Shown piece after piece: positions 12,374-64,000 of a DNA stretch of 64,000 bases. Every line of letters starts with the position of its first letter. Position 1 is the first letter of the stretch. Origin of the DNA: Hypericum androsaemum. Its lineage: Eukaryota; Streptophyta; Magnoliopsida; Malpighiales; Hypericaceae. The stretch covers positions 7,931,906 to 7,995,905 of the forward strand of contig OZ023199.1 of the NCBI GenBank assembly GCA_963995505.1, given 5' to 3'. The notes under the pieces are model-generated. The model did not search any database. It was not told the origin of the DNA and saw only the letters and a program-made list of their open reading frames with translations. A program made the translations under genes and the position numbers.

Positions 12374-12451
12374 CAAAATAAGAAAACATAATAATACTAA
12401 TTGATATAATTAAAAAAAGTGTATATACTGAATTCATTTTCATATAAAGAA

Positions 12452-12581: not shown

Positions 12582-12880
12582 TCATTGAAGCCCTATCATT
12601 TTTAAAATATAAAGAAAGCAAATCGATGCTCCAACCGCTTGCTGCGGTTACTTTAAGTATTTCTTGACTGAGAGCGGCCCAAGCCATGCTTGCCTTTTTT
12701 TTTCATGCCAGACGGCTGGATGGATGAACTTCCTTGCGCACACGGTCAATCAACCGGTTCCCCCGGCACACCAAAGGGAGAATTTTTGTAAACAAACTTT
12801 ACTAAGAGATGGAATAGAAAATAGATTCCAATAAGCTAAATGGATTTTATATATATTTCATATATTTCGGGGCCACTTGA

Positions 12881-22650: not shown

Positions 22651-23386
22651 ACTTTTCTTGCCTTTTCTTGCCTTTTCATGCCTTTTCTTGCCTTTTCATG
22701 CCTTTTCATGACTTTTCTTGCCTTTTTATGCATTTTCATGCCTTTTCTTATCTTTTCTTGACTTTTCTTGCCTTTTCTTGCCTTTTCATGCCTTTTCTTG
22801 CCTTTTCATGCCTTTTCATGCCTTTTCTTGCCTTTTCATGCCTTTTCTTGCCTTTTCATGCCTTTTCATGACTTTTCTTGCCTTTTCATGCATTTTCTTA
22901 CTTTTTCATGCCTTTTCTTGCCTTTTCTTGCTTTTCATGCCTTTTCTTGCATTTTCATGCCTTTCCTTGCCTTTTCATGCCTTTTCATGCATTTTCATGC
23001 CTTTTCTTGCCTTTTCATGCCTTTTCTTTAGTTTTCTTGCCTTTTTTTGCCTTTTCATGCCTTTTCTTGCCTTTTCTTGCCTGTTCATGAATTTTCTTGC
23101 CTTTTCATGCATTTTCTTGCCTTTTCTTGCCTTTTCTTGCCTTTTCATGACTTTTCTTGCCTTTTCTTGCATTTTCTTGCCTTTTCTTGCCTTTTCATGC
23201 CATTTCTTGCCTTTTCATGCCTTTTCATGCCTTTTCTTACCTTTTCTTGCATTTTCATCCCTTTTCTTGCCTTTTCTTTCCTTTTCATGCCTTTTCATGA
23301 CTTTTCTTGCCTTTTCATGCATTTTCTTGCCTTTTCATGCCTTTTCATGCCTTTTCTTGCCTTTTCATGCTTTTTTATGCCTTTTC

Positions 23387-23898
23387 TGATGTAGCACAAT
23401 GGAAGCGTACTATTCTACACGTAAAGTAAACAAGGCTCCGAACAAACAGAAAGAAATAAAATAATAGACACTTCCACTTGAATCTTCCGAAATAAGATGG
23501 AAGGTGTGCTTGAGTCCACAAGCAGCCAACCAATGGCCAAGGTAGACCACTCTCACGCACGCAGCGCTCTCAACTCATTTACTCGTGTTTGTTTTTTGGA
23601 TAAAAATTGTCTGTCCATTATTTCCCTTCGCAAGATACAAATAGAAGGCGGGAGTTAAGGCGGGAGTTATGGCGAGCCTTCTCACACTCCTCCTGTCCGT
23701 AACCTCCTCTTTAACCTCCACTAATTGGCATTTAATTTGCCTTATTACAGCCACGAAATTAAACATGAAATTTAAACATGTTCTCGACAGAGATTGCAAT
23801 AATTGAAAACACAAAATCCATGCTCGCCATGCACACATCCAATGCACAAACAGGCTGGCCGAGGGAGTTCTTGCTTATTGTGATTCATCCTACGGCAC
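23387..23898 (-). mobile_element. Inverted LTR fragment, CRM-like family, first copy
   Basis: Read on the minus strand, this segment matches the 3' part of the LTR at 47891-48389: GTGCCGTAGGA, the region with GGAGGTTACGGACAGGAGGA, the GGCTGCTTGTGGACTCAAGC block, and the terminus TTGTGCTACATCA. The true LTR end lies at 23387 directly against satellite. The other side is cut inside the LTR. Minus-strand open frames of 61 and 90 codons here are not genes. Confidence 0.88.
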
Positions 23899-28767: not shown

Positions 28768-28967
28768 NNNNNNNNNNNNNNNNNNNNNNNNNNNNNNNNN
28801 NNNNNNNNNNNNNNNNNNNNNNNNNNNNNNNNNNNNNNNNNNNNNNNNNNNNNNNNNNNNNNNNNNNNNNNNNNNNNNNNNNNNNNNNNNNNNNNNNNNN
28901 NNNNNNNNNNNNNNNNNNNNNNNNNNNNNNNNNNNNNNNNNNNNNNNNNNNNNNNNNNNNNNNNNNN
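28768..28967. other. Assembly gap of 200 N
   Basis: Exactly 200 undetermined bases lie inside the satellite. A round number suggests a placeholder of unknown true size. Open frames spanning it are meaningless. Confidence 0.99.
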
Positions 28968-40900: not shown

Positions 40901-41741
40901 ATGCCTTTTCATGACTTTTCTTGCCTTTTCTTGCCTTTTCATGCCTTTTCTTGCCTTTTCATGCATTTTCATGTTTTTTCTTGCCTTTTCATGCCTTTTC
41001 TTGCCTTTTCATGCCTTTTCATTGCCTTTTCATGCCTTTTCTTGCCTTTTCTTGCCATTTCTTGCCCCTTTATGCCTTTTCTTGCCTTTTCTTATCTTTT
41101 TATACCTTTTCATGCCTTTTCTTGTCTTTTCATGCCTTTTCATGCCTTTTCTTGCCTTTTCATGCCCTTTCTTGCCTTTTCTTGCCTTTTCATGCCTTTT
41201 TTTGCCTTTCCTTGCCATTTCTTGCCTTTTTATGCCTTTTCATGCCCTTTCTTGCCTTTTCTTGCAATTTCTTGCCTTTTCATGCCTTTTCATGACTTTT
41301 CTTGCCTTTTCTTACATTTTCTTGCCTTTTCTTGCCTTTTCATGCCTTTTCTTGCCTTTTCTTGCCTTTTCATGCCTTTTCTTGCCTTTTCTTGCCTTTT
41401 CATGCCTTTTCATGACTTTTCTTGCCTTTTCATGCATTTTCATGCCTTTTCTTGCCTTTTCATGTCTTTTCATGACTTTTCTTACCTTTTCATGCCTTTT
41501 CATGCCTTTTCTTGCCTTTTTATGCCTTTTCTTGCCTTTTCATGCATTTTCTTGCCTTTTCATGCCTTTTCTTACATTTTCTTGCATTTTCATGCCTTTT
41601 CAAGCCTTTTCTTGCCTTTTCTTTCCTTTTCATGCCTTTTCATGACTTTTCTTGCCTTTTCATGCATTTTCTTGCCTTTTCATGCATTTTCATGCCTTTT
41701 CATGCCTTTTCATGCTTTTTCATGCCTTTTCTTGCCTTTTC
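28968..41741 (+). repeat. Homogenised decamer satellite with about 540-bp higher-order units
   Basis: This is the most regular part of the array. Marker strings recur in order, such as CCTTTCCAAGC (near 31405, 31945, 35810, 36385, 36925) followed by CTTGAATTTCCTTGCC. Several intervals are 540 bp (54 decamers) and one is 575 bp. The units therefore form a higher-order repeat with local gains and losses. Marker variants include CATTTTTTTCC, ATGAGTTCTC and ATGCCATTACTTACC. The many predicted proteins of up to 577 residues here are all readings of the same decapeptide cycle and are not genes. Confidence 0.97.
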
Positions 41742-42058
41742 TAATGTAGCACAATGGAAGCGTGCTATTCTACACGTAAAGTAAACAAGGCTCCGAACAA
41801 ACAGAAAGAAATAAAACAATAGACACTTCCACTCGAATCTTCCGAAACAAGATGGAAGGTGTGCTTGAGTCCACAAGCAGCCAACCAATGGCCAAGCTAG
41901 ACCACTCTCACGCACGCAGCGCTCTCAACTCATTTACTCGTGTTTGTTTTTTGGATAAAAATTGTCTGTCCATTATTTCCCTTTGCAAGATACAAATAGA
42001 AGTCGGGAGTTAAGGCGGGAATTATGGCGAGCCTTCTCACACTCCTCCTGTTCGTAAC
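41742..42058 (-). mobile_element. Inverted LTR fragment, CRM-like family, second copy
   Basis: This is a shorter copy of the fragment at 23387-23898, in the same orientation and with the same satellite/LTR junction (CTTTTCT then AATGTAGCAC). I count about ten differences over the shared 317 bp, eight of them transitions. It stops after CTCCTGTTCGTAAC, about 195 bp earlier than the first copy. It is followed by a short string TCATTTACTCATGTTTC that resembles LTR sequence about 125 bp upstream, and then satellite. The shared junction means both copies descend from one insertion that was amplified with the array. Confidence 0.88.
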
Positions 42059-44243
42059 TCATTTACTCATGTTTCTTGCATTTTCATGCCTTTTCATGCT
42101 TTTTCTTTCCTTTTCATGCCTTTTCATGCATTTTCTTGCCTTTTCATGCATTTTCATGCCTTTTCTTGCCTTTTCAAGCTTTTTCATGCCTTTTCTTGAC
42201 TTTTCTTGCCTTTTCTTGCCATTTCTTTCCTTTTCATGCTTTTTCATGACTTTTTTTGCCTTTTCATGCATTTTCATGCCTTTTCTTGCCTTTTTCATGC
42301 CTTTTCTTGCCTTTTTCATTCCATTTCTTATCTTTTCATGCCTTTTCTTGAATTTCCTTGCCATTTCTTGCATTTTCATACATTTTCTTATCTTTTCATG
42401 CCTTTTCATGCCTTTTCTTGCCTTTTCATACCTTTTCATACATTTTTTGCCTTTTCATGCCTTTTCTTGCCTTTTCATGCCTTTTCATGCCTTTTTATGC
42501 CTTTTCATGATTTGTCATGCCTTTTCATGCCTTTTCATGACTTTTCTTGCCTTTTCATGCCTTTTCTTGCCTTTTCATGCCTTTTCATGCTTTTTCTTAC
42601 CTTTTCATGCCTTTTCTTGCCTTTTCTTGCCTTTTCATTGCCTTTTCATGCCTTTCCTTGCCATTTCTTGCCCATTTATGCCTTTTCTTGCCTTTTCATG
42701 CCTTTTCTTGAATTTTCATGCCTTTTCTTGCCTTTTCTTGCCTTTTCATGCCCTTTCTTGCCTTTTCTTGCCTTTTCATGCCTTTTCTTGCCTTTCCTTG
42801 CCATTTCTTGCCTTTTTATGCCTTTTATGCCTTTTCTTGCATTTTCTTGCCTTTTCATGCCCTTTCTTGCCTTTTCTTGCCTTTTCTTGCCTTTTCATGC
42901 CTTTTCTTGCCTTTTCTTGCCATTTCTTGCCTTTTCATGCCTTTTCATGACTTTTCTTTCCTTTTCTTGCATTTTCTTGCGTTTTCATGCCTTTTCTTGC
43001 CATTTCATGCCTTTTCATGCCTTTTCTTGCCTTTTCTTGCCTTTTCTTGCCTTTTCATGCCTTTTCATGACTTTTCTTGCCTTTTCATGCATTTTCATGA
43101 CTTTTCTTGCCTTTTCATGCCTTTTCGTGACTTTTCTTGCCTTTTCTTTCCTTTTCATGCCTTTTCATGACTTTTCTTACCTTTTCATGCATTTTCTTGC
43201 GTTTTCTTGCCTTTTCATGCCATTTCATGCCTTTTCATGCCTTTTCATGCCTTTTCTTGCTTTTTCATGACTTTTCTTCCTTTTCATGCATTTTCATGCC
43301 TTTTCTTGACTTTTCATGCCTTTTTTTACCTTTTTATGCATTTTCATGCCTTTTCTTGCCTTTTCATGCCGTTTCTTGCATTTTCATGCCTTTTCATTCC
43401 TTTTTACGCCTTTTCATGCATTTTAATGCCTTTTCTTGCCTTTTCATGCCTTTTCGTGACTTTTCTTGCCTTTTCTTACATTTTCCTGCCTTTTCTTATC
43501 TTTTCATGCCTTTTCTTGCCTTTCATGCCTTTTCTTTCCTTTTCTTGCCTTTTCATGCCTTTTCATGACTCTTCATGCCTTTTCTTGCCTTTTCATGCCT
43601 TTTCTTGCCTTTCCAAGCCATTTCTTGCCTTTTCATGCATTTTCTTGCCTTTTCATGACTTCTCTTGCCTTTTCATACCTTTTCATGTATTTTTCTCCTT
43701 TTCATGCCTTTTCTTGCCATTTCATGCCTTTTCTTGCCATTTCATGCCTTTTCTTGCCTTTTCATGCCTTTTCTTACCTTTTCATGCCTTCTCATGACTT
43801 TTCTTGCCTTTTCATGCATTTTCATGCCTTTTCTTGCCTTTTTCATGCCATTTCTTATCTTTTCATGCCTTTTCTTGAATTTCCTTGCCATTTCTTGCAT
43901 TTTCATACATTTTCTTATCTTTTCATGCCTTTTCATGCCTTTTCTTGCCTTTTTATACATTTTTTTGCCTTTTCATGCCTTTTCTTGCCTTTTCATGCCT
44001 TTTTATGCCTTTTCATGATTTTTCATGCCTTTTCATGCCTTTTCATGACTTTTCTTGCCTTTTCATGCCTTTTCTTGCCTTTTCATGCATTTTCATGCTT
44101 TTTCTTGCCTTTTCATGCCTTTTCTTGCCTTTTCTTACCTTTTCATGCCTTTTCATTGCCTTTTCATGCCTTTTCTTGCCTTTTCTGGCCATTTCTTGCC
44201 CCTTTATGCCTTTTCTTGCCTTTTCTTATCTTTTTATACCTTT
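42059..44243 (+). repeat. Homogenised decamer satellite, right end
   Basis: The last satellite block carries the same higher-order markers (CTTGAATTTCCTTGCC near 42345 and 43873, CCTTTCCAAGCC near 43608). It ends at about 44243, where ordinary mixed sequence starts. The edge is sharp, with intact decamers up to the break, unlike the decayed left side. Confidence 0.96.
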
Positions 44244-48562: not shown

Positions 48563-51500
48563 ATGGCCGATCCTAATGACACTCCAAGACCCGATATGAA
48601 CCAGAGATTCACTCAAATGGAGGCGGCAATTCAGGCCATCCTTACCCGCCTGGACAACCTCGCGGTGCAACCCCCTCCAGCTGAGGTACGTAATGAACAA
48701 AGAGAGGAAGAGGAGGATGTAGATTCTGATGCTACCCTTAATGTGAGAAGGGGAGGGAGAGTGTTGAGGGGACGAGGTAGAGGAGGTGGTAGACACGGTG
48801 ATCTAGGACGTGCTCCTGGAAGAGAAGTCTATAGGGAGGAATATGAGCGTGGAGGAGAATATAGAAGGGTGGATCGTCCATTCAAAATGAACATAGAGAA
48901 ATTCTATGGTGATGCGGACGTGGAAGGCTTTCTCAACTGGTTGGACTCGGTGGAAAAATATTTTGATTGCATGCAACTCACGGAAGAACAGAAGGTGAGC
49001 TACGTAGCCTTCAAGCTTGAGTCCGGAGCTGCCGTGTGGTGGAGGAAGGAACAAGAGTCTCGTAGGAGAAGAGGAGATCTACCAATCAGAGACTGGCCGA
49101 CCATGGAGCAAGCCTTGAGGGAGAGGTTTTTGCCAGTGGACTACCATCAGACCCTCTACAGTCAATTCCTTACGTGCACTCAAGGAAATCGTTCGGTGGA
49201 AGAGTACATGACTGAATTCATGAGGTTGGCGTCGAGGAACGATGTAGAAGAGAATGAGGATCAGATGATTGCATGGTTTGTTGAGGGCCTCAGTTATGAG
49301 ATCAAGAGCAAGATGGAGTTTGACACGTTTTTGTTTTTCAACGATGCGTGTGCCAAAGCCAGAAAGATCGGGGCTGCCTTGAAGAGGAAGAAAGCGCCCT
49401 CTATCCGTTTTTCAGGGCCTGGTCAGGCTTCCACCTATGAAAGGGGAGGTGTGGAAAGGAGCACACCCCAAGCTTCCGAGCCTAAACCCCCTCCTAGCAA
49501 GCCTGCCCCTGTGATTGCACAAAGAAAGGAAAAAGAGGTAGCCACAACCTCATCAATCCGATGTTTCAAATGCAATGAAATGGGCCACAAGTCTAGTGAT
49601 TGCCCTAAACGCAAGTTTACACAACTTTGCGAGAAGGAAGATTCGGATGAGGAGGAGGAAGGGGCGTATTTGTGTGCACCCGTGGACGAGGGTGATGAAG
49701 AGGAGGAGACCTCTGAAGGAGAAGAGTATTGCGGGGTCATACAGAAGGTAGCATTGACCGCAACCAAGAGAGATGATTCCCAACGTAATAACTTGTTTCG
49801 CACGAGTTGTCATGTTGGGAAAGTGGTGTGTGAAGTGATAATAGATGGAGGCAGCCAGGAGAACTTTGTGAGTAGCAAGACAGTGGAAAAGCTTGGCTTG
49901 AAGACCTCACCTCACCCCACTCCATATTCCATTGGATGGGTCAGATCCGGAGGTGGAATCAAGGTCAACTCGAGGTGCACTGTCCCAATCACAATTGGGA
50001 AGTATTCTGACCAAGTTGTATGTGATGTCCTTGAGATGGATGCATGCAACATTCTGTTAGGCAGACCTTGGGAGTTTGATAATAAGGTCGTGCATCGAGG
50101 CGAAGAGAACACGTACGAGGTCAGAAAAGGAGGAGAGAAGTTTACTTTGTTGCCGAAGAAGCCTAAGCACGTGAAGGGGCAAACCAATGCCATGCAGCTC
50201 GTATCTATGGTGACCTCTGTGCACGAGATGGTGAACTACACGCGAGAAGCAGGCTGTTTCCATGTGCTTATTATGACAAATCCTCCAGCCAAGGAAGATG
50301 AAGGCGTGGAGTCTCTCCCTGAAGTGGTGCTGGAGTTATTTGAGCTCTTTCCAGAGCTCGTGGATGAAAGCTTGCAAAAGGGGCTACCACCCTTGCGTGA
50401 CATCCAGCACCAAATTGACCTTATACCTGGCGCAACCCTTCCAAACTTGCCGCACTACCGGATGAGTCCGAAGGAGAACCAAATTATCCGAGAGCAAGTG
50501 CAAGAGTTACTGGACAAGGGCTATGTGCAAGAGAGCCTAAGTCCTTGTGGCGTGCCAGCTTTGCTCGTGCCAAAGAAAGATGGCACTTGGAGAATGTGCA
50601 TCGACAGCAGGGCGATCAACAAGATCACAATCGGGTACAGATTTCCCATCCCTCGCCTCGATGATATGCTGGACAACCTGAGTGGAGCCACCATATTCTC
50701 CAAGATTGATCTACGAAGCGGGTATCATCAGATCAGAATTCAGCCTGGTGATGAATGGAAGACCGCGTTTAAAACGCGAGATGGTTTGTATGAGTGGCTC
50801 GTGATGCCTTTCGGGCTCACTAATGCCCCAATCACGTTCATGAGGCTAATGCACCAAGTCCTGAAGCCTTTCCTAGACAAGTACGTGGTGGTTTATTTTG
50901 ATGACATCTTGGTGTATAGCAAGACCAAAGAAGACCACATGGTGCATTTGAAGGAAGTGTTCTCAACCTTGCGAGCAAATCAATTGTACGTGAACCTGAA
51001 GAAGTGTAGTTTTTGGAAGAGCCAACTTCTGTTTTTGGGGTTCCGGGTTGGAAAGGAAGGAGTCCATGTTGATCAGGCCAAGATAGAAGCAATACGCTCC
51101 TGGCCATCTCCTTTAAATGTGAGCCAGACCCGTAGCTTTCTTGGCTTGGCATCCTTCTACCGCCGGTTCATTCGGGATTTTAGCATGATTGCTGCCCCTC
51201 TCACGGCCCTATTGAAGAAGCAGACCCCCTTCGTTTAAGGAGAAGAAGCTGAGCATGCCTTTCAGACATTGAAGGAGAAGCTTAGCACCGCACCTGTGCT
51301 CGCACTCCCTGACTTTGCCAAGCTATTTGAAGTTGAGGTGGATGCATCCGGGCTTGGCATTGGGGCCGTGCTCTCGCAAGAGAAGAAACCTGTGGCTTTC
51401 TTCAGTGAGAAGCTTAGTGAAGCAAGATTGAAGTGGACGACGTACGAGAAAGAATTCTACGCTGTTTTCCGAGCTCTCAAGACGTGGGAGCACTACCTTG

Positions 51501-51570
51501 TTGGTAAGGAGTTCATTCTCTACTCAGATCACAAGGCTTTGAAGTTCTTGCATGACCAGTCTAGGCTAAA
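48563..51570 (+). pseudogene. Truncated gag-pol polyprotein, Ty3/gypsy, CRM-like
   Basis: From an ATG 159 bp after the primer site, one frame encodes in order: a gag capsid domain (about residues 105-275, with FLNWLDSVEKYF and AAVWW), a CCHC zinc knuckle (CFKCNEMGHKSSDC, about 334-347), an aspartic protease (IIDGGS, Asp about 428), and reverse transcriptase (PKKDGTWRMCID; active site YFDD at 778-781). A TAA at 51236-51238 replaces the tryptophan usual in the FxWGEE linker. The same frame then continues into RNase H ([31 protein letters not shown]) and is cut at 51570. Late RNase H, integrase and the 3' LTR are missing. The RT and linker resemble CRM chromoviruses. Gag and pol are fused in one frame. 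The copy cannot move on its own. Confidence 0.9.
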
Positions 51571-51601
51571 GGGTTGCCCGGGACTCGACCCCGGAACTAG
51601 T
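51571..51601 (-). pseudogene. trnK-UUU: 3' end of plastid trnK-UUU
   Basis: On the minus strand the 31 bases run from ACTAGTTCCGGGG to CCCGGGCAACCC. This is the T-arm and 3' acceptor strand of plastid tRNA-Lys(UUU), with one T-loop change (GTCGAGT for TTCGAGT). Nothing else of the tRNA, its intron or matK follows. It directly abuts the broken retrotransposon, so it marks the junction between nuclear repeat DNA and plastid-derived DNA. The bases GGG at the joint could be shared by both sides. Confidence 0.75.
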
Positions 51602-51984
51602 ATATCAATATGAAGATCTAAAAAAATCCAAATCGAAATCTTCATATCGAATAGGAATATGTTAAGATATTAACAACTTAATTAAAAAGTTAACAGTATT
51701 TAAGACTCTTTTCAGAGTCTAATGAGAATTACGATTGAGAATGACTATTAGAATGAATATTCGCTAGAATTAATATTAGAATCGTCTAGAATTCGAGTTT
51801 ATATGATTCAAAAAAGTTGACTATTCATTTATTATATTAATAATAATCAATAATGAGAATATTCATAATCAAGACTGATAAGTAGGCTCTTTAATCACCC
51901 CATTTGACTATTTGCCATTATTTCAATCAACTCAAATGAGATTCAAAATGACAAAAAAAGTAAGTGGACCTAACCCACGGGCTC
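51602..51984. other. A/T-rich spacer downstream of the accD-like frame
   Basis: This stretch is very A/T-rich, with repeated GAATATT and AGAATT words and no open frame of note. It corresponds to the 3' flank of the minus-strand accD-like gene. I do not recognise psaI or another plastid gene in it. Confidence 0.6.
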
Positions 51985-54900
51985 TCACTCTCCTTCGTCT
52001 TCTGAATCACTTGCTTTATGGAAAGGGATTTCCTCTTTATCTACATAAATGCAGATCCCTAGATCTCGACAATATGAATCAGCGACGGCCTCTAACTCCG
52101 CCTCCTTGTCAATGGGATCTTCCTTGTCAATGGGATCTTCAATGGCATCTTTAATGACATCTTTAATGACATACCAGAATTTTGTAATGTCTGCAATGCG
52201 AACGTCAAGGGGATCGTTAATGGAAACTAAAATGGTCTCTTTAAAGGCATGTTTAAGGACATCTAAGGAATCTTGACCGGGATCTTCAATGGCAGCTTTA
52301 AAGGCATCTTTAATGATATACCATAAATCTACAAGGTCTCCAATGGGATAGTGAATGGCAGCTTTAAGGGCATCTTCAACGCCATCTAAGGAATCTTGAC
52401 TGGGATCTTCAATGGCAGCTTTAACGGCAGCTTTAACGACATCCCAGGAATCTTCACTGCGAGCTTTAATGGCAGCTTTAAGGGTATCTTTAAGAGCATC
52501 TAAGGAATCTTGACCGGGATCTTCACTGAAAGCTTTAAGGGCTGCTTTAACGGGATCTGCAATGGGATCTTCAATGGCATCTTTTAAGCCATCCCCAGAA
52601 TCTTCACTGCGAGCTTTAATGGCAGCTTTAAGGGTATCTTTAAGAGCATCTAAGGAATCTTGACCGGGATCTTCACTGAAAGCTTTAAGGGCTGCTTTAA
52701 CGGGATCTGCAATGGGATCTTCAATGGCATCTTTTAAGCCATCCCCAGAATCTTCACTGCGAGCTTTAATGGCAGCTTTAAGGGTATCTTTAAGAGCATC
52801 TAAGGAATCTTGACCGGGATCTTCACTGAAAGCTTTAAGGGCTGCTTTAACGGGATCTGCAATGGGATCTTCAATGGCATCTTTTAAGCCATCCCCAGAA
52901 TCTTCACTGCGAGCTTTAATGGTAGCTTTAATGACATCTTTAATGACATACCAGAATTTTGTAATGTCTGCAATGCGAACGTCAAGGGGATCGTTAATGG
53001 AAACTAAAATGGTCTCTTTAAAGACATGTTTAAGGACATCTAAGGAATCTTGACCGGGATCTTCAATGGCAGCTTTAAAGGCATCTTTAATGATATACCA
53101 TAAATCTACAAGGTCTCCAATGGGATAGTGAATGGCAGCTTTAAGGGCATCTTCAACGCCATCTAAGGAATCTTGACTGGGATCTTCAATGGCAGCTTTA
53201 ACGGCAGCTTTAACGACATCCCAGGAATCTTCACTGCGAGCTTTAATGGCAGCTTTAAGGATATTTTTAAGAGCATCTAAGGAATCTTGACCGGGATCTT
53301 CACTGAAAGCTTTAAGGGCTGCTTTAACGGGATCTGCAATGGGATCTTCAATGGCAGCTTTAAAGGCATCTTTAATGAAATGCCAGAAATCTACAATGTC
53401 TTTAATGTCTTCAAAGGGATCGACAACGGGAAGGTCAATGGCATATTTAATGGCAAATTTAATGGCCAATTTCATTTTCTCTTTATTTTGAAGGACATAT
53501 AAGTAATCTGAACCGGGATCTTCAATGGCATTTATATCTTCAATGGCATCTATAACGGCATCTTGAATGACATACCAGAACTGTACATCTACATCGTAGG
53601 GAACGCGGTAAATGGCATCTGCAAAGGCAGCTTCAACGCGATCTAAGGAATCTTGGCCGGGATCTTCAATGGCAGCTTTAACGGCAGCTTTAACGACATC
53701 CCAGGAATATTCACTGCGAGCTTTAAAGGCAGCTTGAATGGCGTCTTTAAGGGCCTCTAAGGACTCTAGATCGAGATCTTCACGGAAAGCTTTAAAGGCT
53801 GCTTTAACGGGATCTGCAAAGGGATCTTCAATGGCAGCTTCAATGGCATCTTTAAGGACATCCAGGGGATCTGGAACGGGATTTTTAATGGCATCTAGTA
53901 AGCCATCCCAGGAATCTTCAATGCGAGCTGTAAAGGTACCTTTAAGGGTAAGGGCATTATCGAAGAAATCTTGATCGGGATCTTCACTGAAAGCTTTAAG
54001 GTCTGCTTTAACGGGATCTGCAAAGGGATCTTCAATGGCAGCTTCAATGGCATCTTTAATGAAATGCCAGAAATCTACAATGTCTTTAATGTCTTCAAAG
54101 GGATCGACAACGGGAAGGTCAATGACATATTTAATGGCCAATTTCATTTTCTCTTGAAGGACATATAAGTAATCTGAACCGGGATCTTCAATGGCATCTA
54201 TAACGGCATCTTGAATGACATACCAGAACTGTACATCTACATCGTAGGGAACGCGGTAAATGGCATCTGCAAAGGCAGCTTCAACGCGCTTTAAAGAATC
54301 TTGACCGGGATCTTCAATGGCAGCTTTAACGGCAGCTTTAACGACATCCCAGGGATCTTGAACGGGATTTTCAATGGCATCTTTTAAGCCATCCCCAGAA
54401 TCTTCACTGCGAGCTTTAATGGCAGCTTTAAGGGTATCTTTAAGAGCATCTAAGGAATCTTGACCGGGATCTTCACTGAAAGCTTTAAGGGCTGCTTTAA
54501 CGGGATCTGCAATGGGATCTTCAATGGCATCTTTTAAGCCATTCCCAGAATCTTCACTGCGAGCTTTAATGGCATCTTTAAGGGTATCTTTAAGAGCATC
54601 TAAGGAATCTTGACCGGGATCTTCACTGAAAGCTTTAAGGGCTGCTTTAACGGGATCTGCAATGGGATCTTCAATGGCATCTTTTAAGCCATCCCCAGAA
54701 TCTTCACTGCGAGCTTTAATGGCAGCTTTAAGGGTATCTTTAAGGGGATCTAAGGAATCTCGACCGGGATCTTCACTGAAAGCTTTAAGGTCTGCTTTAA
54801 CGGGATTTCCAATGAGATTTTCAATGGCAGCTTTAAAGGCATCTTTAATGAAATACCAGAAATCTACAATGTCTTCAAAGAGATCGACAACGGGAAGGTC

Positions 54901-57900
54901 AATGGTATATTTAATGGCAAATTTAATGGCCACTTTAATTTTATCTTGATTTAGAAGGACATATAAGGAATCTTCAATGGGATCTTCAATGGCATTTATA
55001 TCTTCAATGGCATCTATAACGGCATCGTGAATGGCATACCAGAACTGTACATCTACATTGTAGGGAACGCGGTAAATGGCATCTGCAAAGGCAGCTTCAA
55101 CGCGATCTAAGGAATCTTGGCCGGGATCTTCAATGGCAGCTTTAACGGCATCTTTAAGGACATCCCTGCGATGTTGAACGGATTTTTCGTAATCTGTAAA
55201 AACTTTTTTTGCGAGTTCCCAGGAAGCTACTGTGTCAATGCAATCTTCAAGGACAGCTTTAATGGCATAGTTAAAGCCATCTAAGGAATTTGGACCGGGA
55301 TTTTTAATGGCAGCTTTAAGGGTATCTTTAAGGGCATCTTTAAGGATATCCCTGCGATGTTGACCAGGATCTTTTTGGGGATCTTCAAAGTCATCGGGAT
55401 CTTCAAAGTCATCGGGATCTTCAAAGTCATCGGGATCTTCAAAGTCATCGGAATCTTCAATGGGAGCTTTAAGGGCATCTTTAACGACATACCAGAATTT
55501 TCCAATGTCTTTAATGGAAAGGGCAATGGTAGTATCGTCAATGCAATATTCCATGGCTTTTTTAATGTCATCTTTAAGGACATCTAAGGACTCTTGATCG
55601 AGATCTTTAATGACAGCTTTAAAGGCATTTTTAATGAAATGCCAGAAATCTACAATGTCTTCAAAGGGAGCGTCAAGGGCAGCTTTAAGGGCATCTTCAA
55701 CGCCATCGAAGGAATCTTCAATGGGAACATCAATGGCAACATTAACGGCCTTTTTAAGGCGATCCCAGGGATCTTCAATGGCATCTTTTAAGACATCTAA
55801 GGGATTTTCACTGCGAGCTTTAACGACATCCCGGGGATCTTTAGGGTCCTCTAACTCCGCCTCATTGTCACTGAGATCTTCAAGGAGAGCTTTAAGGGCA
55901 GCTTTAACGACATCCCGGGGATCTTTAGGGTCCTCTAACTCCGCCTTATTGTTACTGAGATCTTCACGGACAGCTTTAACGGCGTCTTTAAAGACATGTT
56001 TAACGACCTCTTTAACGACATCCTGGGGATCTTTAGGGTCCTCCTCTAACTCCGCCTCATTGTCACTGAGATCTTCAATGGCAGCTTCAATGGCAACTAT
56101 AAGGGCATCTTTAACGACATCGCAGGGATGTTTAGGGTCCTCTAACTCCGCCTCCTTGTCACTGAGATCTTCAAGGACAGCTTTAACGGCGTCTTTAAAG
56201 ACATGTTTAACGACCTCTTTTTTAACGCCATTTACGAAATCTGGATCGGGATCTTCATCTTCAATGGCAGCTTTAAGGGGATCTTTCAAGACAACTTTAA
56301 GGATATCTATACTGGCATTGAGAACGGCATCGAGGGAATGGGAATCTTTTATGTGACCATGTTCCAAGTCAGCTCTTTTAGCGACAGCGTTAAAGACAGC
56401 TGATAAATATGACAAGGGAGCATCGCTGACAGCTTTAAAGGCATTGTCAACATCGAAGGACTCTTGACCGGTATCTTCAATGGCAGCTTTAAGGGCATCT
56501 TTAAGGACATCCCAGCGATGTTGAACAGCTTTTTGGTAAAGATCTTTAAGGGCAGCTTTAACGAAATCCCAGCGATATTGAACGAATTCTTCGGAATCGG
56601 AATATGTCAAGTTAGCTTTAAGGATATTTATAACGACATTGACAACGGCATCGGTGGAAGGGGCAGATTCAATGGGACCATTTTCGAAGACAGCTTGTTG
56701 AAAGGCATTAGAAAGGACATCTGCGACAGTTTCGGAAGAAAATGAAGAGGGAATGAAATCTTTAGCTTTAAGGGCATCTGCAACGCGCTTTAAAGAATCT
56801 TGATCGGGATCTTCAAGGGCAGCTTTAAGGGCAGCTTTAACGCCATTCCAGGGACCTTTATAGCCACCGAAGCGATATTGAAAAACTTTTAGCCAGCCTT
56901 CGTCAATAGCTTTTTGGGCATGAGCTTCAAAGGCAGCTTTAAGGATATCTATAATGGCATCGAGAACAGCATCGGGGGAATGGAAATCTTTAATGAAACC
57001 TTTTTCCAAGACAACTTTTTGAACGGCACCATAAAGAACAGCTAAGGAATATGAAAAGGAAGCATCGCTGACAGCTTTAAAGGCCTCTCTCATGACATTC
57101 AAGGAATCTGGACCATGATCTTGAATGGCAGCTATAAGGGCACCTTTAACGCCATCCCAGGGATCTTTTTTGGCTGCTTTTTTAATGGCATCTTTAATGA
57201 AATGCCAGAAATCTACAAAGTCTTCAACGTTGTCTTCAAAGGGAGCGAAACTGGGAATGTCCATGCCCTCTTTAATGGCATCTTTAATGGCATCTTTAAG
57301 GACATCTAAGGAATCTGGACCGGGATCTTCAATGGCAGCTTTAACGGCATCTTTAATGATATACCCTAACTCGATATAGACCTTGTCGGGAGCATCTACA
57401 AAGGCATCTTCAACGCGATCTAAGGAATCTTGGCCGGGATCTTCAATGGCAGCTTTAACGGCAGCTTTAACGACATCCCAGCGATGTTGAACGGATTTTT
57501 TGAAATCTGTAGACTGTTTATTGAAGTCTTTTTGGTAGGCAATCATATCTGCAAGAACAGATTTAATGGCATCTTTTAAGCCAGCTAAGGAATCTGGACC
57601 GGGATCTTTAATGGCAGCTTTAAGGGTATCTTTAAGGGCATCTTTAAGGATATCCCTGCGATGTTGACCGGGATTTTTTTGGGAATCTTTAACTTTAAAG
57701 TAACCTACATTTAAAAAGTTCTTTAAGGAATACATGTAAGGGGGGTCAAAGTGAGGGACCTCGGAAAAGTAATCGTCAATGCGATTTTGAACGGTATCTG
57801 AAACGAAATACGAAACGCCATCCCAGAATTTTCCAATGTCTTTAATGAAAAGGGCACTGGTAGTAGGGTCAATGCAATATTTCATGGTATTATTCATGGG

Positions 57901-59187
57901 AGTAGCGTCAATGCAATATTCCATGGCTTTTTTAAAGGTATGTTTAAGGAGATTTAAGGAATCTTGACCGGGATCTTCAATCAAATCTATAAAGTCATCT
58001 TTAATGAAATCCCAGAAATCTACAGCAATGTCTTCAAAGGGAGCGTCAATGGCAGCTTTAAAGGCATCTTCAACGCCATCTAAGGAATCTTGACAGGGCT
58101 CTTTATCTTGAATGGCATCCTTAAGGACCTGAAAAAGGCGATTCCAGGGATCTTGACCGGGATTTTCAATGGCATCTTTAACGCCATTTACGAAATCTGG
58201 ACCGGGATCTTCAGGGTCCTCTAACTCCGCCTCCTTGTCACTGAGATTTTCAAGGAGAGCTTTAACGGCATCTTTAACGACCTCTTTAACGACATCCCGG
58301 GGATGTTTAGGGTCCTCTAACTCTGCCTCATTGTCACTGAGATCTGCAATGGCAGCTATAAGGGCATCTTTAACGACATCCCAGGGATGTTTAGGGTCCT
58401 CTAACTGCGCCTCATTGTCACTGAGATCTGCAATGGCAGCTTGAATGGCGTCTTCAAGGAGAATTATAAGGGCAGTTTTAACGACACCGACATCCCGGGG
58501 ATCTTTAGGGTCCTCTAACTCCGCCTCATTGTCACTGAGATCTGCAATGGCAGCTATAAGGGCATCTTTAACGACATCCCGGGGATCTTTAGGGTCCTCT
58601 AACTCCGCCTCATTGTCACTGAGATCTTCAAGGACAGCTTTAACGGCGTCTTTAAGGACATGTTTAACGACATCTTTAAAGACATCTAAGGGATCTTCAA
58701 TGGGATCTTCAGGGTCCTCTAACTCCACCTCATTGTCAATGGGATCTGCAATGGGATCAAGAATAGGATCTAAGGAATTAAAGTGAATGGGATCTGAGGA
58801 ATCAAAGTGAATGGGATCCAAGGAACGCATTTGTTGATCCATAGGCTTCCAAGTATCTGAATCAAGCAAAAAGTCAATGCGCTCCGAACTCTTCATTTTT
58901 ATGTAAGAATCACAATATTCACAAATATACATTTTTTCCTTAGCAATTTTGTGATAGGTCATTCCGTCGCAAAAGTCGCACACAACCCAGAGATGGCTAA
59001 AATCTTTTGGTCTGATGAGACCGGTACAATTTTCATTTGTAGTTAAAATTGTACTCTCAATTTCATCAGGATTTGCCCCTTCACTCATTTCACTCATATT
59101 TTCCTTTTCACTCATTTTTTCCTTGTCACTGATTTTTTCAGTGTCACTGATTTTTTCCTTGTCACTCATATTTTCCTTGTCACTCAT
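51985..59187 (-). CDS. accD: Giant accD-like frame: zinc ribbon plus helical repeats, no catalytic domain
   Basis: The 2400-codon frame is uninterrupted. Residues 1-30 are five hexapeptide repeats (MSDKEN type). Residues 65-128 match plastid AccD: HLWVVCDFCDG, CEYC, SSERIDFLLD, DTWKPMD, SLDPIHF. The cysteines (70, 73, 89, 92) keep the C-X2-C-X15-C-X2-C spacing of AccD zinc ribbons. AccD is the beta carboxyltransferase subunit of plastid acetyl-CoA carboxylase (malonyl-CoA for fatty acid synthesis) and is usually about 500 residues long. The carboxyltransferase domain that should follow is absent. About 2,200 residues of repeats replace it, rich in Asp, Glu, Lys and Ala, such as DALKDTLKAAIKARSED and ADPVKAALKAFSEDPGQDSL. 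The end is a unique tail (SYCRDLGICIYVDKEEIPFH). The start is fixed by a Shine-Dalgarno site. It is either a copy of an extreme plastid allele or a NUPT with later repeat growth. Carboxyltransferase activity from this frame alone is not credible. Confidence 0.8.
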   Translation of the reverse strand: MSDKENMSDKEKISDTEKISDKEKMSEKENMSEMSEGANPDEIESTILTTNENCTGLIRPKDFSHLWVVCDFCDGMTYHKIAKEKMYICEYCDSYIKMKSSERIDFLLDSDTWKPMDQQMRSLDPIHFDSSDPIHFNSLDPILDPIADPIDNEVELEDPEDPIEDPLDVFKDVVKHVLKDAVKAVLEDLSDNEAELEDPKDPRDVVKDALIAAIADLSDNEAELEDPKDPRDVGVVKTALIILLEDAIQAAIADLSDNEAQLEDPKHPWDVVKDALIAAIADLSDNEAELEDPKHPRDVVKEVVKDAVKALLENLSDKEAELEDPEDPGPDFVNGVKDAIENPGQDPWNRLFQVLKDAIQDKEPCQDSLDGVEDAFKAAIDAPFEDIAVDFWDFIKDDFIDLIEDPGQDSLNLLKHTFKKAMEYCIDATPMNNTMKYCIDPTTSALFIKDIGKFWDGVSYFVSDTVQNRIDDYFSEVPHFDPPYMYSLKNFLNVGYFKVKDSQKNPGQHRRDILKDALKDTLKAAIKDPGPDSLAGLKDAIKSVLADMIAYQKDFNKQSTDFKKSVQHRWDVVKAAVKAAIEDPGQDSLDRVEDAFVDAPDKVYIELGYIIKDAVKAAIEDPGPDSLDVLKDAIKDAIKEGMDIPSFAPFEDNVEDFVDFWHFIKDAIKKAAKKDPWDGVKGALIAAIQDHGPDSLNVMREAFKAVSDASFSYSLAVLYGAVQKVVLEKGFIKDFHSPDAVLDAIIDILKAAFEAHAQKAIDEGWLKVFQYRFGGYKGPWNGVKAALKAALEDPDQDSLKRVADALKAKDFIPSSFSSETVADVLSNAFQQAVFENGPIESAPSTDAVVNVVINILKANLTYSDSEEFVQYRWDFVKAALKDLYQKAVQHRWDVLKDALKAAIEDTGQESFDVDNAFKAVSDAPLSYLSAVFNAVAKRADLEHGHIKDSHSLDAVLNASIDILKVVLKDPLKAAIEDEDPDPDFVNGVKKEVVKHVFKDAVKAVLEDLSDKEAELEDPKHPCDVVKDALIVAIEAAIEDLSDNEAELEEDPKDPQDVVKEVVKHVFKDAVKAVREDLSNNKAELEDPKDPRDVVKAALKALLEDLSDNEAELEDPKDPRDVVKARSENPLDVLKDAIEDPWDRLKKAVNVAIDVPIEDSFDGVEDALKAALDAPFEDIVDFWHFIKNAFKAVIKDLDQESLDVLKDDIKKAMEYCIDDTTIALSIKDIGKFWYVVKDALKAPIEDSDDFEDPDDFEDPDDFEDPDDFEDPQKDPGQHRRDILKDALKDTLKAAIKNPGPNSLDGFNYAIKAVLEDCIDTVASWELAKKVFTDYEKSVQHRRDVLKDAVKAAIEDPGQDSLDRVEAAFADAIYRVPYNVDVQFWYAIHDAVIDAIEDINAIEDPIEDSLYVLLNQDKIKVAIKFAIKYTIDLPVVDLFEDIVDFWYFIKDAFKAAIENLIGNPVKADLKAFSEDPGRDSLDPLKDTLKAAIKARSEDSGDGLKDAIEDPIADPVKAALKAFSEDPGQDSLDALKDTLKDAIKARSEDSGNGLKDAIEDPIADPVKAALKAFSEDPGQDSLDALKDTLKAAIKARSEDSGDGLKDAIENPVQDPWDVVKAAVKAAIEDPGQDSLKRVEAAFADAIYRVPYDVDVQFWYVIQDAVIDAIEDPGSDYLYVLQEKMKLAIKYVIDLPVVDPFEDIKDIVDFWHFIKDAIEAAIEDPFADPVKADLKAFSEDPDQDFFDNALTLKGTFTARIEDSWDGLLDAIKNPVPDPLDVLKDAIEAAIEDPFADPVKAAFKAFREDLDLESLEALKDAIQAAFKARSEYSWDVVKAAVKAAIEDPGQDSLDRVEAAFADAIYRVPYDVDVQFWYVIQDAVIDAIEDINAIEDPGSDYLYVLQNKEKMKLAIKFAIKYAIDLPVVDPFEDIKDIVDFWHFIKDAFKAAIEDPIADPVKAALKAFSEDPGQDSLDALKNILKAAIKARSEDSWDVVKAAVKAAIEDPSQDSLDGVEDALKAAIHYPIGDLVDLWYIIKDAFKAAIEDPGQDSLDVLKHVFKETILVSINDPLDVRIADITKFWYVIKDVIKATIKARSEDSGDGLKDAIEDPIADPVKAALKAFSEDPGQDSLDALKDTLKAAIKARSEDSGDGLKDAIEDPIADPVKAALKAFSEDPGQDSLDALKDTLKAAIKARSEDSGDGLKDAIEDPIADPVKAALKAFSEDPGQDSLDALKDTLKAAIKARSEDSWDVVKAAVKAAIEDPSQDSLDGVEDALKAAIHYPIGDLVDLWYIIKDAFKAAIEDPGQDSLDVLKHAFKETILVSINDPLDVRIADITKFWYVIKDVIKDAIEDPIDKEDPIDKEAELEAVADSYCRDLGICIYVDKEEIPFHKASDSEDEGE
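52451..52900 (-). repeat. 150-bp tandem repeat, three units, in the accD-like frame
   Basis: TCTTCACTGCGAGC recurs at 52451, 52601, 52751 and 52901, giving three nearly identical 150-bp units. Each encodes 50 residues with two predicted amphipathic helices (DALKDTLKAAIKARSED and ADPVKAALKAFSED) joined by Asp/Pro/Gly turns. The same unit recurs at 54401-54700 and in the second copy of the region. Confidence 0.92.
54401..54700 (-). repeat. 150-bp tandem repeat, second array
   Basis: The 150-bp unit described at 52451 occurs again here as two full units (starts 54401, 54551 and 54701), with a few substitutions, for example CATTCCC for CATCCCC at 54540. The array continues into a partial third unit. 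Confidence 0.9.
55381..55452 (-). repeat. Four 18-bp repeats encoding DDFEDP
   Basis: Four exact or nearly exact 18-bp units (ATCTTCAAAGTCATCGGG) encode the acidic hexapeptide DDFEDP four times. The same array is present at 61411-61482 in the second copy. The unit length is again a multiple of three. Confidence 0.92.
58804..58995 (-). other. accD: AccD zinc-ribbon domain, residues 65-128
   Basis: This is the only part of the giant frame with clear homology. It has the four zinc-binding cysteines with AccD spacing, followed by the conserved AccD linker (RIDFLLDSDTWKPMDQQM, then LDPIHF). In bacteria this domain helps bind nucleic acid and shape the enzyme. Homology stops just after SLDPIHF, where the first short repeat (SDPIHFNSLDPI) starts, so expansion appears to begin from that motif. 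Confidence 0.88.
59098..59187 (-). repeat. Five 18-bp repeats encoding the N-terminal hexapeptides
   Basis: Five 18-bp units encode MSDKEN, MSDKEK, ISDTEK, ISDKEK and MSEKEN. They may have moved the start codon upstream, since four of the five units could carry or once carried ATG. The unit length is a multiple of three. Confidence 0.85.
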
Positions 59188-59192
59188 TTTTT

Positions 59193-59197
59193 CCTCC
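59193..59197 (-). promoter_or_regulatory. Shine-Dalgarno site of the accD-like frame
   Basis: On the minus strand GGAGG lies five bases before the ATG (GGAGGAAAAAATG). This is an ideal bacterial or plastid ribosome-binding site and not a feature of nuclear genes. It supports both the plastid origin and this start codon. Confidence 0.8.
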
Positions 59198-59905
59198 TAT
59201 AACCTATAAGGGGTTTAATACCAAATTAGTCCTGAAACTGGTTTAGAATCATCCTAACCAAGAACTGAAAAATGTTTTGGATCGTTCTACTTTGTTTTTT
59301 GTTTATTTAATACTCAATAACTCAATACTAAAAAAAAAGGGTCTAGTGTCGAACAGAACAAATGATGTCGAGCCGCCAGCACCTTACATTTTCTATATAT
59401 AATGAGCTAGGTTATACTGAATAGGTCGGTTGGGTATAGAAATCCCCAGTCGATCATGTCCTTCAAGTCGCACATTGTTTTTTAGCACATCGCCTCAAAT
59501 CAAGTTTTACCATAACATTTAGGGAATTTTGGAATTGTGAACCGGTATAGACTCGATTACATTATGTAATTTTGTATTCTCGAACACACAGTATCCTCTT
59601 TTAGTATTATCGCGATACAGTGGACGCGGAAGAAGTTGAACCCCCGCTATTACAGATTTGATCTGCAAATAACCGGGTTGGGGGTTGCTTGTCTCTTGTC
59701 TATAGCCAGGACCTCCGCCTGCCAAGAAGCCCAGCCCCACCCCAAGTTGAACCCTTGACTTCGGGAATCTATTTTAACCCCGAGCTTTCCTGGGCTTGGG
59801 CTATCGCTGGGCTATAGATAGAGCAAATACCTTCTCAACGGGGCTCTTCGGGTTTTATCACTCAACCCAACCTGGCATCCGAAAAGCCTCCCCCTCGCCG
59901 CGCGT
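59198..59905. other. Rearranged plastid-like spacer upstream of the accD-like frame
   Basis: No credible gene is visible. On the minus strand near 59440-59495 the string GTGCGACTTGAAGGACATGA resembles the 5' end of plastid group II introns (GTGYG start). This is a tentative reading without an exon or domain V to back it. Positions 59640-59840 are G/C-richer and unassigned. Open frames of 60-75 codons here show no features. Confidence 0.45.
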
Positions 59906-60078: not shown

Positions 60079-60150
60079 AGGGCGCGAGAGGATTCAAACC
60101 TCCGACGGCGGGTAAAACACCCGATGCCTTATCACTCGGCCACGCGCCCC
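60079..60150 (-). tRNA. tRNA-like gene, 72 nt, possibly tRNA-Lys(UUU), unusual loops
   Basis: On the minus strand the 72 bases fold as a tRNA. The acceptor stem is GGGGCGC with GCGCCCT (first pair G-U). The D-arm is GCC-GAGTGATAA-GGC. The anticodon stem is TCGGG/CCCGC with loop TGTTTTA. The T-arm is GGAGG-TTTGAAT-CCTCT. In the standard register the anticodon is TTT (Lys). Two invariant positions are broken: G instead of U at 33, and T instead of C at 56. Acceptor and D-arm resemble plastid trnQ, so a diverged trnQ is the main alternative. The odd loops suggest a pseudogene or a very divergent plastid tRNA. Confidence 0.55.
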
Positions 60151-60320
60151 GTTCGGTTGTTCAAGATTCATTCTAGGTAGGCAATGGGGCGAAAGCAGTC
60201 GCCCCTTCGAGACATGCAGGTAAAACAAACACCCACGGTATCCTAGTTGTCTTTTCTTATTCTCGAAAAGAAAAATCTGCACCCATCCATCCTATTTTAG
60301 GATTCTAGGGATGGATGCAG
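60148..60320. repeat. 173-bp direct repeat, copy B
   Basis: This is the second copy of the repeat at 59906, including the hairpin (GGGGCGA from 60186). It ends GGATGCAG and joins directly to accD-like sequence (GCAGCTTCAACGCG). The four bases GCAG are shared by both sides, which indicates a join by microhomology. Confidence 0.9.
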
Positions 60321-63300
60321 CTTCAACGCGCTTTAAAGAATCTTGACCGGGATCTTCAATGGCAGCTTTAACGACATCCCAGGGATCTTGAACGGGATTT
60401 TCAATGGCATCTTTTTAGCCATCCCCAGAATCTTCACTGCGAGCTTTAATGGCAGCTTTAAGGGTATCTTTAAGAGCATCTAAGGAATCTTGACCGGGAT
60501 CTTCACTGAAAGCTTTAAGGGCTGCTTTAACGGGATCTGCAATGGGATCTTCAATGGCATCTTTTAAGCCATCCCCAGAATCTTCACTGCGAGCTTTAAT
60601 GGCAACTTTAAGGGTTTCTTTAAGAGCATCTAAGGAATCTTGACCGGGATCTTCACTGAAAGCTTTAAGGGCTGCTTTAACGGGATCTGCAATGGGATCT
60701 TCAATGGCATCTTTTAAGCCATCCCCAGAATCTTCACTGCGAGCTTTAATGGCAGCTTTAAGGGTATCTTTAAGGGGATCTAAGGAATCTCGACCGGGAT
60801 ATTCACTGAAAGCTTTAAGGTCTGCTTTAACGGGATTTCCAATGAGATTTTCAATGGCAGCTTTAAAGGCATCTTTAATGAAATACCAGAAATCTACAAT
60901 GTCTTCAAAGAGATCGACAACGGGAAGGTCAATGGTATATTTAATGGCAAATTTAATGGCCACTTTAATTTTATCTTGATTTAGAAGGACATATAAGGAA
61001 TCTTCAATGGGATCTTCAATGGCATTTATATCTTCAATGGCATCTATAACGGCATCGTGAATGGCATACCAGAACTGTACATCTACATTGTAGGGAACGC
61101 GGTAAATGGCATCTGCAAAGGCAGCTTCAACGCGATCTAAGGAATCTTGGCCGGGATCTTCAATGGCAGCTTTAACGGCATCTTTAAGGACATCCCTGCG
61201 ATGTTGAACAGATTTTTCGTAATCTGTAAAAACTTTTTTTGCGAGTTCCCAGGAAGCTACTGTGTCAATGCAATCTTCAAGGACAGCTTTAATGGCATAG
61301 TTAAAGCCATATAAGGAATTTGGACCGGGATTTTTAATGGCAGCTTTAAGGGTATCTTTAAGGGCATCTTTAAGGATATCCCTGCGATGTTGACCAGGAT
61401 CTTTTTGGGGATCTTCAAAGTCATCGGGATCTTCAAAGTCATCGGGATCTTCAAAGTCATCGGGATCTTCAAAGTCATCGGAATCTTCAATGGGAGCTTT
61501 AAGGGCATTTTTAACGACATACCAGAATTTTCCAATGTCTTTAATGGAAAGGGCAATGGTAGTATCGTCAATGCAATATTCCATGGCTTTTTTAATGTCA
61601 TCTTTAAGGACATCTAAGGACTCTTGATCGAGATCTTTAATGACAGCTTTAAAGGCATTTTTAATGAAATGCCAGAAATCTACAATGTCTTCAAAGGGAG
61701 CGTCAAGGGCAGCTTTAAGGGCATCTTCAACGCCATTGAAGGAATCTTCAATGGGAACATCAATGGCAACATTAACGGCCTTTTTAAGGCGATCCCAGGG
61801 ATCTTCAATGGCAGCTTTAAAGGCATCTTTAATGATATACCATAAATCTACAAGGTCTCCAATGGGATAGTGAATGGCAGCTTTAAGGGCATCTTCAACG
61901 CCATCTAAGGAATCTTGACTGGGATCTTCAATGGCAGCTTTAACGGCAGCTTTAACGACATCCCAGGAATCTTCACTGCGAGCTTTAATGGCAGTTTTAA
62001 GGATATTTTTAAGAGCATCTAAGGAATCTTGACCGGGATCTTCACTGAAAGCTTTAAGGGCTGCTTTAACGGGATCTTCAATGGGATCTTCAATGGCAGC
62101 TTTAAAGGCATCTTTAATGAAATGCCAGAAATCTACAATGTCTTTAATGTCTTCAAAGGGATCGACAACGGGAAGGTCAATGGCATATTTAATGGCAAAT
62201 TTAATGGCCAATTTCATTTTCTCTTTATTTTGAAGGACATATAAGTAATCTGAACCGGGATCTTCAATGGCATTTATATCTTCAATGGCATCTATAACGG
62301 CATCTTGAATGACATACCAGAACTGTACATCTACATCGTAGGGAACGCGGTAAATGGCATCTGCAAAGGCAGCTTCAACGCGATCTAAGGAATCTTGGCC
62401 GGGATCTTCAATGGCAGCTTTAACGGCAGCTTTAACGACATCCCAGGAATATTCACTGCGAGCTTTAATGGCAGCTTGAATGGCGTCTTTAAGGGCCTCT
62501 AAGGACTCTAGATCGAGATCTTCACAGAAAGCATTAAAGGCTGCTTTAACGGGATCTGCAAAGGGATCTTCAATGGCAGCTTCAATGGCATCTTTAAGGA
62601 CATCCAGGGGATCTGGAACGGGATTTTTAATGGCATCTAGTAAGCCATCCCAGGAATCTTCAATGCGAGCTGTAAAGGTACCTTTAAGGGTAAGGGCATT
62701 ATCGAAGAAATCTTGATCGGGATCTTCACTGAAAGCTTTAAGGTCTGCTTTAACGGGATCTGCAAAGAGATCTTCAATGGCAGCTTCAATGGCATCTTTA
62801 ATGAAATGCCAGAAATCTACAATGTCTTTAATGTCTTCAAAGGGATCGACAACGGGAAGGTCAATGACATATTTAATGGCAAATTTAATGGCCAATTTCA
62901 TTTTCTCTTGAAGGACATATAAGTAATCTGAACCGGGATCTTCAATGGCATCTATAACGGCATCTTGAATGACATACCAGAACTGTACATCTACATCGTA
63001 GGGAACGCGGTAAATGGCATCTGCAAAGGCAGCTTCAACGCGCTTTAAAGAATCTTGACCGGGATCTTCAATGGCAGCTTTAACGGCAGCTTTAACGACA
63101 TCCCAGGGATCTTGAACGGGATTTTCAATGGCATCTTTTAAGCCATCCCCAGAATCTTCACTGCGAGCTTTAATGGCAGCTTTAAGGGTATCTTTAAGAG
63201 CATCTAAGGAATCTTGACCGGGATCTTCACTAAAGCTTTAAGGGCTGCTTTAACGGGATCTGCAATGGGATCTTCAATGGCATCTTTTAAGCCATCCCCA

Positions 63301-64000
63301 GAATCTTCACTGCGAGCTTTAATGGCAGCTTTAAGGGTATCTTTAAGAGCATCTAAGGAATCTTGACCGGGATCTTCACTGAAAGCTTTAAGGGCTGCTT
63401 TAACGGGATCTGCAATGGGATCTTCAATGGCATCTTTTAAGCCATCCCCAGAATCTTCACTGCGAGCTTTAATGGCAGCTTTAAGGGTATCTTTAAGGGG
63501 ATCTAAGGAATCTCGACCGGGATCTTCACTGAAAGCTTTAAGGTCTGCTTTAACGGGATTTCCAATGAGATTTTCAGTGGCAGCTTTAAAGGCATCTTTA
63601 ATGAAATACCAGAAATCTACAATGTCTTCAAAGAGATCGACAACGGGAAGGTCAATGGTATATTTAATGGCAAATTTAATGGCCACTTTAATTTTATCTT
63701 GATTTAGAAGGACATATAAGGAATCTTCAATGGGATCTTCAATGGCATTTATATCTTCAATGGCATCTATAACGGCATCGTGAATGGCATACCAGAACTG
63801 TACATCTACATTGTAGGGAACGCGGTAAATGGCATCTGCAAAGGCAGCTTCAACGCGATCTAAGGAATCTTGGCCGGGATCTTCAATGGCAGCTTTAACG
63901 GCATCTTTAAGGACATCCCTGCGATGTTGAACGGATTTTTCGTAATCTGTAAAAACTTTTTTTGCGAGTTCCCAGGAAGCTACTGTGTCAATGCAATCTT
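60321..64000 (-). pseudogene. accD: Second, broken mosaic copy of the accD-like repeat region
   Basis: Positions 60321 to about 61807 match 54279-55777 (offset 6,030 bp after a 12-bp deletion). At about 61808 the copy switches to sequence like 53070-54370. After about 63120 it matches the 54380 region again, and it leaves the window unfinished. It therefore has a different module order from the first copy. It is interrupted by an in-frame stop near 60415 (CTTTTTAGCC for CTTTTAAGCC in the first copy) and a one-base deletion near 63232. Between them an 828-codon frame (60415-62901) stays open. No zinc ribbon is present in the window. It may be a duplicated and decaying segment, or the interior of another full copy. 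Confidence 0.8.

Follow-up and report, generated by a model that had tools for sequence, protein, structure and literature searches.

Growth of the plastid gene accD by in-frame repeats, in Hypericum among other plants, is already known from the published accounts considered here. In H. ascyron, accD is a 3,204 bp ORF that its authors call intact, in which a 736-aa insertion of irregular repeats divides the conserved domain in two; the same plastome has four partial accD copies and is without rps16 and trnK-UUU (PMC8941745). Five Hypericum plastomes, H. perforatum included, are likewise described as being without trnK-UUU and rps16 and as having long repeats in accD (PMC10671389), and accD is reported to rank with the most variable plastid genes of the Hypericaceae (PMC11719816). 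Expanded accD genes are also described in cupressophytes (Cephalotaxus hainanensis, 1070 codons, the longest of those sampled; PMC5920036), in Medicago truncatula (650-796 aa, frame kept; PMC4131835), in Lamprocapnos (with RT-PCR support; PMC6134119) and in cacti, where repeats abound in the upstream part while the catalytic motifs are kept (PMC9993602). Functional transfer of accD to the nucleus is described for Trifolium and Trachelium (PMC4131835). Neither an accD frame of 2400 codons nor a nuclear copy of a Hypericum accD was found described in those parts of the open-licence literature that were consulted.

The locus reported here is an open frame of 2400 codons, running from ATG to TGA on the minus strand of the window (the whole stretch of DNA analysed, 64,000 nucleotides; Table 1), as established by ORF calling and translation. 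The coordinates and length given in the original prediction of an accD-like frame were exact, and the strand is the minus one: the three plus-strand frames across the same interval contain 73 to 252 stops each. The frame is very probably a young pseudogene in nuclear plastid DNA (NUPT), derived from a giant accD of the Hypericaceae, broken and with its catalytic end cut off; the fragment corresponds to about nine tenths of an accD gene, counted from the 5' end. With H. ascyron accD it shares the long repeat insertion, and the plastome of that species too has partial copies, whereas the gene itself is an ORF of 3,204 bp described as intact and the present frame has 2400 codons without the carboxyltransferase end (PMC8941745). 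In-frame repeat growth is also common to the frame and to the described accD genes of cupressophytes, Medicago and Lamprocapnos, but these have kept the catalytic part, carry independent repeats and are shorter (up to 1070 codons; 650-796 aa).

Table 1. Positions of the features in the window (strand as read; basis of each assignment in the last column).
Feature	Position	Strand	Basis
Pyrimidine-rich decamer satellite TTTTCTTGCC	1..44227	+	TRF, 4386.7 copies, 73% matches
Ty3/gypsy gag-protease-RT-RNase H, cut off at about 51570	48563..51570	+	Pfam RVT_1 3.2e-43, Retrotrans_gag 5e-15, RT_RNaseH 2.4e-28
AT-rich stretch, presumably plastid-derived, where the carboxyltransferase part would be expected	51571..51975	-	read from sequence; GC 0.27 over 51600-51984
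Conserved accD linker, broken by TGA 51985-51987; homology end about 51976	51976..52110	-	36/45 identity with P0002, E 1e-19
accD-derived open frame of 2400 codons (P0001)	51985..59187	-	ORF and translation
In-frame repeat array (insertion)	52111..58782	-	tandem repeats; offsets multiples of three
accD zinc ribbon and conserved stretch after it, residues about 45-135	58783..59055	-	TIGR00515, P0002 match
AGGAGG ribosome-binding-like motif, 5 bases before ATG	59193..59198	-	read from sequence
tRNA-like gene	60079..60149	-	Rfam tRNA 47.0 bits, E 1.2e-08, stretch searched alone
Partial second array copy, carrying a nonsense change (stop 60415-60417) and a 1-base deletion; leaves the window	60317..64000	-	alignment to copy 1

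Judged from its sequence, the frame certainly carries the accD zinc ribbon: frame residues 65-130 match positions 24-89 of the 285 in TIGR00515 (E 2.8e-13; the frame scores 49.9 bits, where the cut-off for the full length is 317.45), and weak matches to this stretch came from four PDB AccD chains (E 0.0033 to 0.024). All four cysteines are in place (VVCDFC...YICEYC), as had been predicted. The predicted absence of the carboxyltransferase core from the frame was confirmed as well: PF01039 was not found there by Pfam search, and the carboxyltransferase end of a related protein (218 residues of P0002, described below) had no match in the window by tblastn (best E 2.1). Set against a functional plastid accD, the frame has the four-cysteine ribbon and is without PF01039, and an AccD without the carboxyltransferase domain cannot do the transfer.

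Among the nine matches listed for the frame, from 30 candidates scored, the closest was a chloroplast accD protein (P0002, 868 aa, E 3.4e-55) labelled 'Tax=Hyperi', which was read as Hypericum; PF01039 is present in it, and it is 84% identical to the frame over residues 45-150. A Cratoxylum accD (P0003) came second, and the remaining seven were six proteins labelled Terniopsis (of the Podostemaceae) or 'Ternio' and one that was nameless. Cratoxylum belongs to the Hypericaceae (PMC9637187). On the strength of these matches, the window was assigned to a Hypericum-like plant. A conifer (cupressophyte) origin, which published accounts of expanded accD genes had first suggested, was dropped, the closest protein being labelled 'Hyperi...'. 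P0002 and the frame have in common the start MSD, the zinc ribbon, a DPI-rich start of the insertion and the linker; P0002 differs in its repeat units, which are of the DPKDSNPQDSDPS type, and in having kept the carboxyltransferase domain. When residues 500-1000 of the last 1000 of the frame were used as the query, P0002 alone was recovered (the match covers 9% of the query, which is as long as the tail), and frame residues 1-700 gave no match, the 7993 or 7983 candidates with most shared words being scored in these searches. No relatives of the frame were found among the viral contigs searched.

The last residues of the frame, DKEAELEAVADSYCRDLGICIYVDKEEIPFHKASDSEDEGE, fall within a 45-residue alignment with P0002 (36/45 identical, 80%, E 1e-19), and this alignment crosses the TGA for three codons more (EGE*EPV vs EGKGDPV), so that homology ends at about 51976, 9 bases behind the stop; the Cratoxylum protein P0003 has DEPVVVDPEDDE here. 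The homology behind the stop comprises only these three codons. In P0002 the linker leads into the carboxyltransferase domain, and 293 residues follow the linker match; the lineage-specific linker that stands before this domain in accD of the Hypericum type is present in the frame. The frame thus ends by a stop within the old linker, and a break about 9 bases beyond that stop, not replacement, has removed its catalytic end, because the tail is the P0002 linker and the match passes the stop. The C-terminus is consequently not the unique tail that it had been taken for. Nor did the proposal hold that the catalytic domain has been replaced by helical repeats, since the repeats sit at a known insertion site: in Hypericum accD the insertion lies between the zinc ribbon and the carboxyltransferase domain, and the repeats of the frame, which are this same insertion, lie at the same place.

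For the analysis of the array, repeat copies within the frame were compared in ungapped 60-base windows (identity at least 85%): all 220 distinct offsets (10,246 window pairs) were divisible by three. As controls, satellite stretches similar in length to the frame were used, three in number, and their distinct offsets were spread over the remainders 0, 1 and 2 as 90, 85, 87; 1267, 1256, 1261; and 1336, 1332, 1333 (counted by pairs, the first control was somewhat uneven: 1561, 1254, 1033). Ungapped 120-base windows (identity at least 80%) gave three identity bands with 23,631 aligned bases in total, and here too every offset was divisible by three. Gapped BLAST with lax gap costs, which is noisy, placed 3 of 38 alignments off frame and gave gap lengths in all classes; with a second gapped setting, all 12 alignment offsets and 12 of the 16 gap lengths were divisible by three. 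In the second array copy, 3242 pairs had remainder 0 and 2655 had remainder 2, the pattern that its 1-base deletion would make. Offsets within an array are not independent events. A non-coding array would not give such offsets: because 220 of 220 are divisible by three, the array grew under coding constraint, with the frame under selection, which bears out the in-frame expansion of length that had been proposed. This growth presumably took place in the plastid.

Differences among the array units were more often nonsynonymous than synonymous (pS 0.013-0.030, pN 0.039-0.103, from dependent comparisons), also for pairs at 88-95% identity (pS 0.021, pN 0.081, from comparisons that reuse the same changes). 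AlphaFold, run as a single sequence on the last 500 residues of the frame, predicted helices with a mean pLDDT of 45.1. The predicted 'helical repeats' may therefore stand as a weak statement on secondary structure in that part and do not extend to a fold. A Pfam match to NBAS_11th within the array (E 3e-13, 50.3 bits, cut-off 27) was taken as a probable compositional match of short repeats, as were the matches to DUF2433, DUF7605, Complex1_LYR_1 and Matrix_Borna, which lay below their cut-offs.

Within the frame itself (unspliced), N-terminal room for a transit peptide appears to be absent, because an in-frame TAG (59197-59199, minus strand) stands 9 bases before the accD ATG. A functional nuclear transfer would have a targeting sequence before the carboxyltransferase domain; here the TAG, an acidic N-terminus and the missing domain were found in its stead. 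No working AccD comes from the 2400-codon copy, because the catalytic domain is gone and the frame has no transit peptide. These observations bear on a split AccD, in which the frame would supply the zinc ribbon and the repeats (helix), and another gene the carboxyltransferase domain, the two being joined in trans in the complex. The open frame of 2400 codons, the intact ribbon and array growth under frame constraint would all suit such a protein, but the stop lies within a conserved linker with homology continuing past it, no transit peptide is present in the frame, and the accD of H. ascyron is described as one intact ORF (PMC8941745), which makes a split enzyme very unlikely. Nothing in the analysis supports the split or neofunctional protein that had also been suggested: the frame has no room for a transit peptide, the second array copy is broken, and the contig carries repeats of a nuclear type.

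Alignment of the second array copy with the first covers 3703 bases and falls into two blocks, which overlap by 31 bases in copy 2; a stretch of copy 1 (54275-55247, 973 bases) is used in both, and changes there are doubly counted. Read on the minus strand, copy 2 consists of a block matching 53056-55247 followed by a block matching 54275-55798, so that a unit of about 2.7 kb is partly duplicated in it; beyond the end of the window the array may be longer. The copies diverge by 0.57%. Of their 21 substitutions, 1 is synonymous, and the 20 nonsynonymous ones include TTA to TAA; two indels of 12 bases and one 1-base deletion were also found. Without selection, 4.5 synonymous changes would be expected at 21% synonymous sites (P(<=1) = 0.044), so that nothing in the comparison of the copies points to purifying selection at the amino-acid level. 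The ratio of 20 to 1 cannot by itself show that copy 1 is dead, because the changes are unpolarised and the same excess occurs among the units within the frame. The clear signals of decay are the nonsense change and the deletion alone, and both concern copy 2; before its terminal stop, the frame has no decay.

How much the openness of the frame can tell was estimated from the single changes that create a stop in it (809 of 21,600 possible). A divergence of 0.3% is about half of that between the copies and may differ from the age of the transfer; with equal rates it gives an expectation of 0.81 stops and a probability of 0.445 that none occurs, which falls to 0.067 at 1% and to 0.0046 at 2% divergence. 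The openness of copy 1 is equally compatible with a dead copy that is young and with a copy under constraint, and would not fit an old dead copy. If the copy is that young, its openness is no sign of function, given the probability of 0.445. Of the options that had been offered, 'pseudogene' emerges as the best reading, from the stop in the linker, the lost catalytic end and the broken copy 2.

The sequence is plastid-derived by its P0002 match and linker, and its flanks on the same contig, a Ty3/gypsy element and a satellite, are nuclear in kind. Plastomes are not known to hold such a satellite or Ty3/gypsy elements. A nuclear location is suggested because both occur on the contig that carries the frame; it depends on flanks within one contig, which might itself be chimeric. 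NUPTs in general resemble the locus in being plastid-derived stretches among nuclear repeats, and the unusual length of the open frame would be due to a source gene that was repeat-expanded. It is highly improbable that the fragment lies in the mitochondrial genome (as an MTPT) instead of the nucleus: plant mitochondria do acquire plastid DNA and pieces of retrotransposons, but a 44 kb decamer satellite is present on the same contig.

A further reading is that the accD part is present-day plastid DNA misassembled with nuclear repeats, from a plastome whose accD is rearranged or partly duplicated. The wholly open frame, its plastid-like start with AGGAGG and the high similarity of the two array copies would be expected of such DNA, and partial accD copies are described in the H. 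ascyron plastome, which is without trnK-UUU and rps16 (PMC8941745). Against this, the satellite and the gypsy element adjoin accD on one contig, and copy 2 contains a nonsense change and a frameshift, which would be unusual in an essential plastid gene but could occur in a partial duplicate; misassembly is, on balance, unlikely.

The young NUPT pseudogene would most probably have arisen as follows. The plastid accD of the lineage would have grown a very long in-frame insertion between the zinc ribbon and the carboxyltransferase domain, by unequal recombination among the repeats, and only frame-keeping changes would have survived, because the enzyme was needed. A fragment would have broken in the linker ahead of the carboxyltransferase domain and would then have reached the nucleus, with a Ty3/gypsy element and a satellite as its neighbours, where the frame would still be open because the copy is young. 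The locus serves as a warning: since a repeat array that originates inside a coding gene preserves the frame, even 2400 open codons together with an intact domain may belong to a dead copy. The living plastome of the species may perhaps hold an accD that is intact and some 2,700 codons long (the 2400 of the frame and the 293 residues after the linker match in P0002), which we put forward as a possibility rather than an expectation, though a likelier one than a split enzyme; a plastid accD of about 2,700 codons, if real, would exceed the expanded genes described in the literature cited here. The frame suggests that plastid accD of the Hypericaceae may reach sizes well above the published expanded genes compared here, and that its repeats multiply solely in multiples of three bases.

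The surroundings of the frame contain several smaller features. The satellite has a 10-base unit, strong strand asymmetry and a CpG observed/expected ratio of 0.21 over 1-44000. A 332-base tandem duplication (46859-47523, 96% matches) precedes the gypsy element and could be part of an LTR. The element has a stop between reverse transcriptase and RNase H and is cut within RNase H, to which the ORF at 51269-51613 corresponds. The ORF at 59519-59740 and four of the five other small ORFs had no Pfam match near the cut-off. The end of the AT-rich stretch (51571-51601, minus strand) is presumably like the trnK-UUU 3' exon; Rfam found no tRNA there and only a sub-threshold match to YrlA. Upstream of the frame, 59474..59513 (minus strand) resembles what we take to be the start of rps16 exon 1, followed at 59473 (minus strand) by GTGCG..., which reads like the 5' end of a group II intron; Rfam found no group II intron in this stretch.

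The whole-window Rfam scan, which uses faster filters, gave nothing at gathering; the tRNA-like gene was absent from it and from the ARAGORN output, and exceeds the gathering threshold when its stretch is searched alone. We take this gene to resemble trnQ-UUG. Its anticodon loop, UGUUUUA, was taken to contain the anticodon UUU (lysine), and a G occupies the position of the invariant U33; the gene is possibly a decayed remnant or a remoulded tRNA. Around it lies a 186-base direct repeat (59894-60078 and 60135-60320, 97.3% identity), the upper copy of which (60135-60320) joins the broken array copy directly.
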